Source of the DNA: a virus
Virus record (IMG/VR): IMGVR_UViG_3300043119_000156
Location: 1-20,679 of that record
Reading direction: 5' to 3' (one strand)
DNA length: 20,679 nt
In this document: in pieces, positions 10,449-12,156 of the stretch
Numbering within the stretch: position 1 is the first letter of the stretch
Layout: each line of letters starts with the position of its first letter
Notes under the pieces: model-generated
What the model saw: only the letters and a program-made list of their open reading frames with translations
The model's database searches: none
Told to the model about the DNA's origin: nothing
Translations under genes and position numbers: made by a program

Positions 10449-10982
10449 TTAAGCGTCAGCGAATGGGGTGACAACAGAGCCAGAGGCCAGAGCCACGCCA
10501 GTCACCATGTACTTGTTGGCAGCCAACACAGTCACGGTAACGGTCGAACCAGCGATACCACCGGTGGTAGTGCCGTTGAAGGTGATGACGTCGTTGGTCG
10601 ATGCGGGAGCAAAAGCTGTCACAGCGCCGGAGCTGTCGGTGTCAACCATCAGCATGGAGCCAACAAACTTGTCTGTACCGTCAGTGACGATGGACAACGC
10701 CGTTGCGGCAGTCTCAACCACGAACGTGTAGGTTGTGCCCACGTTGTTCACGGTGTTGGGGTCTTGGCCGGGGCCAGAAGTCACAGGATTGGCTGTAGCG
10801 TTGATGGTGGGCAGCGTGATGACCAGCGTAGCGTCGTTGGTGCGGATGGTCTTGCCCGCGTATGTGGCGACATCCAGAGTCACTGTGTTGGTGCCGTTAG
10901 CCAAGTTCACTACAGAAGCGGGGCCTTGGGTGTAGAAGCCAGCCAACGAACGAACTGGGCCTTGGAAAGTAGTCTGAGCCAT
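10449..10982 (-). CDS. Beta-rich virion protein with a structured leader (177 aa)
   Basis: This 177-aa protein (MAQTTFQGPVRSLAGFYTQG at the start) is rich in Thr, Val, Ala and Gly and low in charge, with alternating beta strands (NTVTLDVATYAGKTI, ATLVITLP, TYTFVVETAATALSIVTDG, SGAVTAFAPASTNDVITFNG). It has no Cys. Composition and place directly after the major capsid gene suggest an abundant capsid-surface or decoration-type protein; the family is not recognised. It is separated from the capsid gene by a strong terminator and has its own candidate promoter and an elaborate 5' leader, so it is probably expressed at an independently set level. GAAGGA lies seven bases before the ATG. Confidence 0.75.
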   Translation of the reverse strand: MAQTTFQGPVRSLAGFYTQGPASVVNLANGTNTVTLDVATYAGKTIRTNDATLVITLPTINATANPVTSGPGQDPNTVNNVGTTYTFVVETAATALSIVTDGTDKFVGSMLMVDTDSSGAVTAFAPASTNDVITFNGTTTGGIAGSTVTVTVLAANKYMVTGVALASGSVVTPFADA

Positions 10983-11066
10983 GATTTTTCCTTCATGCAG
11001 TTAAGGCGTATCTGTCTGCATGACGTCGGCCCGGAGCCGTCAGATACACCGGATAGTCCGGGAGTG
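10983..11066 (-). promoter_or_regulatory. Structured 5' leader with candidate H-type pseudoknot at the ribosome site
   Basis: Read on the minus strand, arm 1 GTATCTG (11047-11041), arm 2 TCATGCAG (11023-11016), arm 1' CAGATAC (11014-11008) and arm 2' CTGCATGA (11000-10993) interleave in the order 1-2-1'-2'. Both pairings are perfect (7 and 8 bp). The joining loops are 17 nt (itself able to form CGGC/GCCG), 1 nt and 7 nt, sizes that an H-type pseudoknot tolerates. Arm 2' runs straight into AGGA of the ribosome site. A separate hairpin CCGGA/TCCGG (11061-11049) sits upstream, and CCCGGA could instead pair with TCCGGG in the long loop. Either a pseudoknot or two mutually exclusive hairpins would affect translation of the 177-aa gene. 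Confidence 0.5.
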
Positions 11067-11071
11067 TTTGC

Positions 11072-11100
11072 AATATACACCAAAAGAAAAAGAGGCGCAA
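11072..11100 (-). promoter_or_regulatory. Candidate sigma70-like promoter for the second virion operon
   Basis: On the minus strand TTGCGC (11100-11095), a 17-base spacer rich in T, and TATATT (11077-11072). The -10 is good and the -35 weak. It lies just past the capsid terminator and would start RNA about 7 bases before the structured leader. Confidence 0.4.
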
Positions 11101-11105
11101 CAAAT

Positions 11106-11151
11106 AAAAAGGGCCCCCGAGGGGGCCCTAGTTTGGGGTCTCTCACCCCAA
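11106..11151 (-). terminator. Two-hairpin intrinsic terminator after the capsid gene
   Basis: On the minus strand a first hairpin TTGGGGT-GAGAG-ACCCCAA (11151-11133) is followed by GGGCCCCC-TC-GGGGGCCC (11128-11111) and TTTTTATTTG. The second is a perfect 8-bp GC stem with a T run, a textbook intrinsic terminator, 76-120 bases after the capsid stop. The first hairpin's core recurs at the plus-strand terminator at 19574-19623. Confidence 0.9.
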
Positions 11152-11226: not shown

Positions 11227-12156
11227 TTAAGAGCCCGAAGAACCCCACATACCCAATGGGTCAGACCAGCCGAACGAATAACGCTCGCGGGCCTTGTAAC
11301 GGACGTTACCTGTGTCGAAGTCACCATCCATGGAGGTGGCCAGAGCGGTACGCTCGAAATGCTTCAAGCCGTTTGGAACGTCTGTGGTCAGGAACCAAGC
11401 GTTGTTGTCGGTCAAGAAGTTGTTGACGGTGTAGCCGCCAGAGATCGTGCCCATTTGCTTCAACGCGTTGATGTCGTTGTCAGCAGTACCAACACGCAGT
11501 TCGGTGTCCAGCAAACGCTTGGCAACGAACATCAATGATGGGGGGATAATCAGCTTGACTGGCTTGGCAGCGATCAACAGACCGCGTTCATCAGTCCACG
11601 CAGCGATCTGGATGGTAGCGTTTTCCAACGAGGTCTCGTTCAAGTCAACGCCAGTAGTTGGGCTGTTGTAGTTCACACCACCGCCAACCAAAGGATGACC
11701 AACGCGAGTGCCGCTGGAGTTGTTACCGAACAAAGACACGCCGTCGCCGCCCAGAGCGGTGCCAGCAAAGCCAGTGTTCAACACCGAAGCAGCTTTAACT
11801 TGCTTGGTGTAAGCCATACCGCGAGCCAGCGCCTTGGTGTAGCGGGCAGACAGACTGTCGTACAGGTTGTCTTCCACAGCTTCTTCCGTGATGGAGAAGC
11901 CCAAAGCGATGGTTTCGTGGGTGTAGCGTGCAGTGAAGGCTTCTTGCGCGTTGTCGTAAGCGATGGCGGAGCCTTCGTTCTTGACAGGAGCAGCGCCAAA
12001 ACCGGACAGCTTGGTCTCTTCTTCGAAACTACGCTCAGATTTCTCTGTTTCGTAAATTTCTTTGTGTTGCTCGCCGTAGCGTGCATATTCCAAACCGAAC
12101 AAAGCGTTCAGACCGGGGAGCAGCTCTTTGAGCAGTTGTGCGCGTGAAATAGCCAT
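11227..12156 (-). CDS. Major capsid protein
   Basis: This 309-aa protein forms the icosahedral shell. The N-terminal arm (ISRAQLLKELLPGLNALFGL, EYARYGEQHKEIYETEKSER) leads to the core FTARYTHETIALGFSITEEA, VEDNLYDSLSARYTKALARG, MAYTKQVKAASVLNTGF, the pattern of Mu gpT-type HK97-fold capsid proteins. Later come PVKLIIPPSLMFVAKRLL (the A-domain strand and helix) and the C-terminal GNVRYKARERYSFGWSDPLG. There is no upstream protease and no long N-terminal delta domain; a separate scaffold is encoded two genes upstream. AAGGAG lies seven bases before the ATG and a strong terminator follows, both fitting high expression. Confidence 0.9.
   Translation of the reverse strand: MAISRAQLLKELLPGLNALFGLEYARYGEQHKEIYETEKSERSFEEETKLSGFGAAPVKNEGSAIAYDNAQEAFTARYTHETIALGFSITEEAVEDNLYDSLSARYTKALARGMAYTKQVKAASVLNTGFAGTALGGDGVSLFGNNSSGTRVGHPLVGGGVNYNSPTTGVDLNETSLENATIQIAAWTDERGLLIAAKPVKLIIPPSLMFVAKRLLDTELRVGTADNDINALKQMGTISGGYTVNNFLTDNNAWFLTTDVPNGLKHFERTALATSMDGDFDTGNVRYKARERYSFGWSDPLGMWGSSGS

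Follow-up and report, generated by a model that had tools for sequence, protein, structure and literature searches.

A short mRNA leader in the 20,679-base IMG/VR phage record IMGVR_UViG_3300043119_000156 (hereafter the window, i.e., the whole stretch of DNA analysed) is, as judged by covariation, built of four helices, P0, P1, P2 and P3, which interlock as two pseudoknots. Conservation of the RNA extends to hundreds of aquatic phages and persists when an unrelated protein has replaced the product of the gene downstream; the RNA is most likely a cis-acting leader for translational control that probably sets how much of a capsid-reinforcing protein is made. The minus strand of the window carries structural genes, including those for a terminase, a portal and a Mu gpT-like major capsid protein (11227-12156; phrog_371, PF25209, PF10124), and the leader lies between the last of these and a 177-aa gene (10449-10982, minus strand) in the slot of the capsid cement or decoration protein. 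The sequences with which it was compared were almost all metagenomic: 80 loci with homologous leaders were obtained with the 177-aa protein as the query and 80 further loci through a family of 151-aa proteins encoded in the same gene slot, to which were added leaders from named phages (Pelagibacter phages HTVC023P and HTVC027P, and phage DSL-LC04). An independent set comprised 80 loci fetched by the capsid protein alone, of which the 78 newly fetched ones were scanned with R1, a covariance model of P1 and P3 whose E-values are rough.

Two interleaved helices had been described in the initial annotation, and these were exactly where it had placed them on the minus strand, in the order 1-2-1'-2', at 11047-11041 (arm 1, GUAUCUG), 11023-11016 (arm 2, UCAUGCAG), 11014-11008 (arm 1', CAGAUAC) and 11000-10993 (arm 2', CUGCAUGA). 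The inner gaps of 1 and 7 nt, the 55-nt span and the continuation of the last arm into AGGA were likewise verified. The interleaving is not due to chance: when the leader was shuffled 20,000 times with its dinucleotides preserved, perfect helices of at least 7 and 7 bp interleaved within 60 nt arose 3 times, and among 2,060 overlapping 84-nt tiles from both strands of the window they occurred at the leader only. Both helices proved to be parts of a larger fold than the outline suggested, one that begins further 5', with P0, and in which the helix described as 7 bp extends to 10 bp (GGUGUAUCUG/CAGAUACGCC, with one U-G pair).

In this fold (all coordinates on the minus strand), the mRNA 5' end, i.e., the 5' strand of P0 (CCCGGA, 11057-11062), pairs with the loop of the small hairpin P3 (CGG-C-UCCGGG-CCG, 11027-11039), the loop sequence UCCGGG (11035-11030) being the 3' strand of P0; covariation and the same topology in divergent leaders support P0, and sequence comparison and covariation support P3. 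P1 joins 11041-11050 (GGUGUAUCUG, including arm 1) to 11005-11014 (CAGAUACGCC, including arm 1'), and its strands were likewise assigned from covariation. The linker before P1', which is the 5' strand of P2 (arm 2, 11016-11023; covariation), pairs with bases at the Shine-Dalgarno sequence (SD, AAGGA, 10989-10993, from sequence), so that the 3' strand of P2 (arm 2', 10993-11000; covariation and sequence) has one base in common with the SD. P2 is 6 bp in most relatives of the window leader. Nested minimum-free-energy folding, a method that cannot represent pseudoknots, gave an unremarkable result for the leader alone (z = -1.0).

A local hairpin can also form between the 5' strand of P0 and UCCGG (11049-11053, its 3' arm, located by sequence comparison), and this arm competes with P0 and with the outer end of P1, in CCGG-type clades only. 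As a core switch partner the hairpin CCGGA/UCCGG was rejected because it is absent from CUAGG-type leaders, among them those of DSL-LC04 and HTVC023P. The suggested switch between two exclusive hairpins is consequently possible in the CCGG-type clade to which the window belongs and nowhere else, since the other clades have no alternative hairpin. Within that clade the mRNA 5' end (11049-11062) can pair either with the local UCCGG or with the P3 loop, and one leader (L035) alters both pairing partners together, having CUCGG with two copies of CCGAG; given the two pairing options and their change in step, a switch specific to the clade is conceivable.

Among the leaders of the 80 loci found with the 177-aa query the layout was strongly conserved and the sequence variable, and the arm sequences of HTVC023P, HTVC027P and DSL-LC04 were wholly different from those of the window. 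A descriptor parse recovered one topology in most leaders from the loci of both protein families: the 5' strand of P0, 6-8 nt, P1, A, P3 (whose loop holds the 3' strand of P0), AC(G), P2, AGA, P1', 4-7 nt, P2' and the SD. The leader of one locus, L114, has almost no arm sequence in common with the window, yet has the identical set of four helices. Under strict limits, and with the register of P0 in the parses set by structure, all four helices were found in 61 of 101 distinct leaders and in 19 of 10,100 shuffles; among the other leaders were those of a P2-less type and of the Mu-gpT-DE type, and a few fitting none. In a MAFFT alignment of 40 leaders (A3), 91.5% of cells were paired and 21 of the 24 pairs had double changes, amounting to 196 cells versus 57 in shuffles, while slid-partner controls yielded double changes in 8-13 pairs and 14-45 cells. 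Every one of the six counted P2 pairs had double changes in A3, as did all 10 pairs of P1, both there and in the independent set (A7). The initial annotation had taken homologous leaders without compensatory changes as a finding that would tell against a pseudoknot adjoining the ribosome site of a virion gene; such changes were abundant, and their extent across the homologous leaders supports the pseudoknot, the window leader having both the 1-2-1'-2' interleaving and the compensatory change of an H-type knot.

The independent set provided evidence for the fold and for the gene to which it belongs. Matches to R1 were obtained in 70 of the 78 scanned loci, one in each and on the sense strand, and all 13 modelled pairs covaried in A7 (292 double-change cells versus 84), an alignment that was fitted to P1 and P3. 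The four-helix parse succeeded in 56 of the 70 leaders as against 4 of 2,800 shuffles and, as R1 models P1 and P3, tests P0 and P2 independently of it. In each of the 67 loci with a readable next ORF, the RNA ended -2 to +4 nt from the start codon. The RNA lay 600-1,040 nt past the capsid gene in 18 of the 70 loci, and those inspected had an ORF between the two; where an ORF intervened, the RNA remained with the downstream gene. Its end at the start codon and its retention by that gene past inserted ORFs indicate that the RNA is the leader of the downstream gene rather than the tail of the capsid gene. A single R1 match per genome was found in 19 of the 20 records with a match. The sole record with two, that of L077 (IMGVR_UViG_3300036770_000545), has them near opposite ends of the contig (155-240 and 63114-63201), with unequal scores.

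The inserted ORFs (e.g., L414:3054-3806, L453:3023-3727, L425:3053-3793, L430:3015-3614 and L437:3013-3600), present in up to 18 of the 70 loci, include two GIY-YIG/NUMOD3 endonucleases identified by Pfam, and others that have no Pfam match and resemble GIY-YIG or HNH types by eye. The conserved DNA of the junction may be a homing target. In a further locus (L426:2976-3653), the capsid gene is separated from the leader RNA by a methyltransferase-like ORF (PF13578).

The virion role that had been ascribed to the downstream gene was supported by its position and by the fold of the proteins in its slot. The best solved-structure match of the window's 177-aa protein was the capsid spike of Pseudomonas phage Pa223 (7.3e-5, with a moderate TM score of 0.40), and the model of the 151-aa family matched the cement proteins of Pam1, KHP30 and GP4 (7eel_H, 2.4e-5; 7dn2, 4e-5; 8h89, 8.6e-5), so this family models as having the Pam1/KHP30/GP4 cement fold. 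Sequence searches turned up no relative of solved structure for either the cement families or the capsid protein. The capsid protein itself retains 53-74% identity across the named phages, and BLAST divides the proteins behind the RNA into at least eight mutually dissimilar groups, the two largest of 27 and 17 proteins. Many slot proteins that are otherwise BLAST-dissimilar have a common N-terminus, MAxTTFxGPV (10982-10950 in the window, and relatives), which is possibly a capsid-binding N-arm by analogy to that of the Pam1 cement protein. It is missing from the MALSTTQSIW and MGFATHLGPW types, and slot-protein types without it include MALSTTQSIWRSGG and MGFATHLGPWLLGT.

The geometry of the promoter and the SD places the RNA at the very start of a message. 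The major capsid gene is followed by an intrinsic-terminator hairpin and T run (11110-11129, minus strand), read from the sequence, and then by a -10 box, TATATT (11072-11077, minus strand), identified from the position of the box across 56 distinct leaders, in which it mostly stands 8-9 nt before P0 and has a mean best mismatch of 1.2, versus 2.5 in shuffled sequence. From this spacing the mRNA would begin just ahead of the structure, with transcription starting near 11065 in the window, and the RNA would thus occupy the whole leader from the transcription start to the SD. At the other end, P2 finishes 7-13 nt upstream of the ATG, and across 60 leaders the distance from the end of P2 to the first base of the SD was -3 to +4 nt. 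Leaders of the pelagic type have no P2; they have a linker, ACAAGCCAAGA, and in 55 of 61 of them the SD lies inside a separate hairpin of at least 5 bp. Double changes were found in seven of eight P1 pairs of this type, P0 and P3 being invariant and uninformative in the set because the search pattern had fixed both. The SD is thus in or against a helix in three leader types, and by different helices. In the P2 type it is often abutted only, without being paired, so blocking may be weak. The leader of L086 (Planktothrix phage Pag-Yong1, 2880-3000) appears by eye to hold a different H-type pseudoknot, in which GACCCGGGG/CCCCGGGUC interleaves with a second helix that includes GGAGACGG at the SD. 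An RNA with the structure, position and promoter and SD geometry described here occurs in one copy per genome and exclusively with the cement slot.

The window RNA itself matches no named Rfam class, as the initial annotation had supposed, but its slot is common to, and its core elements resemble those of, the Rfam family Mu-gpT-DE (RF03012). Nothing reached the gathering score when Rfam was searched with the window and 13 relatives; weak matches on the window by E-value lay mostly on the terminator of the capsid gene and were discounted. RF03012 gave no match in the window at its gathering cut-off (49 bits) or at E-values up to 10. It scored 72 bits in Roseobacter phage CRP-902, in the gap that separates a gpT-like capsid gene from the small gene following it, and the window leader too sits after a gpT-like capsid gene. 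A paper that mentions Mu-gpT-DE states only that Rfam and ZWD align it differently and that the structures listed for it lack covarying pairs (PMC7657543). Read by eye, both RNAs appear to have the order helix, A, hairpin, AC, linker, GA and closing strand, with the SD in or at the closing helix. They differ in that the outer helix of Mu-gpT-DE itself contains the SD, and the RF03012 consensus ends in AUG, whereas in the window the SD adjoins P2 rather than P1 and is not the 3' strand of the outer helix; in addition, the window type has the P0 and P2 pseudoknots and a P1 of 9-10 bp, and is not detected by RF03012. R1, for its part, does not recover CRP-902. Of 25 pelagic-type records, about a dozen had sub-threshold RF03012 matches in P2-less leaders with P0, and although a lax search also matched 13 of 14 control genomes and the weak matches are individually not significant, we count them because they fall exactly on the leader. 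Mu-gpT-DE and the window type are therefore tentatively read as one superfamily linked by intermediates. We did not find this leader type described in the open-access papers searched.

The explanation that we consider probable as a whole is that the 84-nt leader heads a separate cement mRNA, the translation of which is throttled by the interlocked fold. The cement gene would be transcribed as its own mRNA, from its own promoter after the terminator of the major capsid gene, with the fold capping the 5' end. In the folded state P2 would pair with or block the SD and so throttle cement translation, and unfolding of the last helix would set, or let something set, the output of cement relative to capsid protein; we infer that translation initiation is reduced or gated. 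A factor acting in trans, if there is one, would be something common to all these phages (the capsid protein, the assembly state or the translation machinery) and not the cement protein. A precedent is the pseudoknot in the mRNA leader of T4 gene 32, also tied to translation initiation, which a 2010 review considered possibly the only viral pseudoknot in translational autoregulation; it sits 67 nt ahead of the start codon and serves to nucleate the cooperative binding of gp32 along an A+U-rich run (PMC3014915). In contrast, the window has two interlocked knots that directly adjoin and reach the SD, with no intervening repeat run, and the product is a virion protein rather than a known nucleic-acid binder. 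A pseudoknot is also part of the translational operator of Escherichia coli rpsO (PMC3014915), the product of which, S15, differs in being an RNA-binding ribosomal protein.

Autogenous control as in T4, with excess cement protein binding its own leader and blocking the SD, had been raised in the initial annotation, and a virion gene with structure at its SD, a leader strictly tied to the cement slot and a common MAxTTFxGPV N-terminus that could recognise RNA are all in keeping with it. However, at least eight BLAST-dissimilar proteins, including types without that N-terminus, follow the same RNA class, and as the RNA persists while the protein behind it changes, autoregulation is unlikely to apply across the whole family; we hold it improbable. 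The conserved neighbour is the gpT-like capsid protein, whose gene precedes the RNA in 110 of 115 loci, whereas the cement protein is exchanged; it or an assembly intermediate might bind the leader and couple cement synthesis to capsid demand. In GP4, another phage that has a cement protein, cement and capsid protein are present 1:1, at 540 copies each (PMC9698820). The association may, however, reflect no more than gene order, and hosts and RNAs diverge widely; we regard this reading as rather unlikely. Somewhat better placed, albeit still unlikely, is a role in mRNA stability, in which a 5'-terminal knot would shield the cement mRNA from 5'-end-dependent decay and effects at the SD would be incidental. 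P0 begins a few nt from the inferred +1 and the product is needed in high copy, and protection of the mRNA 5' end could be the main function of the fold, but the pinning of its 3' end to the SD by different helices in three types would be unnecessary for protection from decay. A ligand-free setting of translation and stability is a candidate alongside an operator coupled to the capsid protein.

Control by a small molecule, also suggested initially, we consider very unlikely. In SAM-II and preQ1 riboswitches the 3' strand of an H-type pseudoknot reaches the SD, and the compact knot and few conserved unpaired bases (A, AC, AGA) of the leader recall them; the leader differs in having neither a match to an Rfam riboswitch nor metabolic target genes. 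A pattern scan of bacterial and archaeal genome contigs returned 107 exact matches, of which 96 lacked P0 plus P1 and were judged to be chance, and the 11 structured ones all preceded a cement-slot gene. With no metabolic or transport gene found behind any structured match, ligand sensing is without positive support. Least probable of all, to the point of being scarcely credible, is a trans-acting sRNA. This is what Rfam's entry for the related Mu-gpT-DE implies, its type being "Gene; sRNA" and its name referring to an element downstream of gpT rather than to a cis leader of the gene that follows. Against it, the RNA stops at the SD or start codon and travels with the cement gene past ORFs inserted after the capsid gene, and the final AUG of the RF03012 consensus points the same way. 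Returning to the throttled cement leader that we favour, a broader form of it, in which the whole leader superfamily, with Mu-gpT-DE as one branch, would be an assembly-coupled operator whose knot is read by a conserved factor such as the major capsid protein, seems to us doubtful.

Were that assembly-coupled reading true, cement synthesis would be matched to capsid demand whichever cement protein follows the RNA. By this comparison, an orphan motif that Rfam annotates as an sRNA would be a cis leader, and a general question, how phages fix the proportion of decoration to capsid protein, becomes testable. As the RNA varies less than the protein behind it, it may also serve as a portable part for the control of expression.
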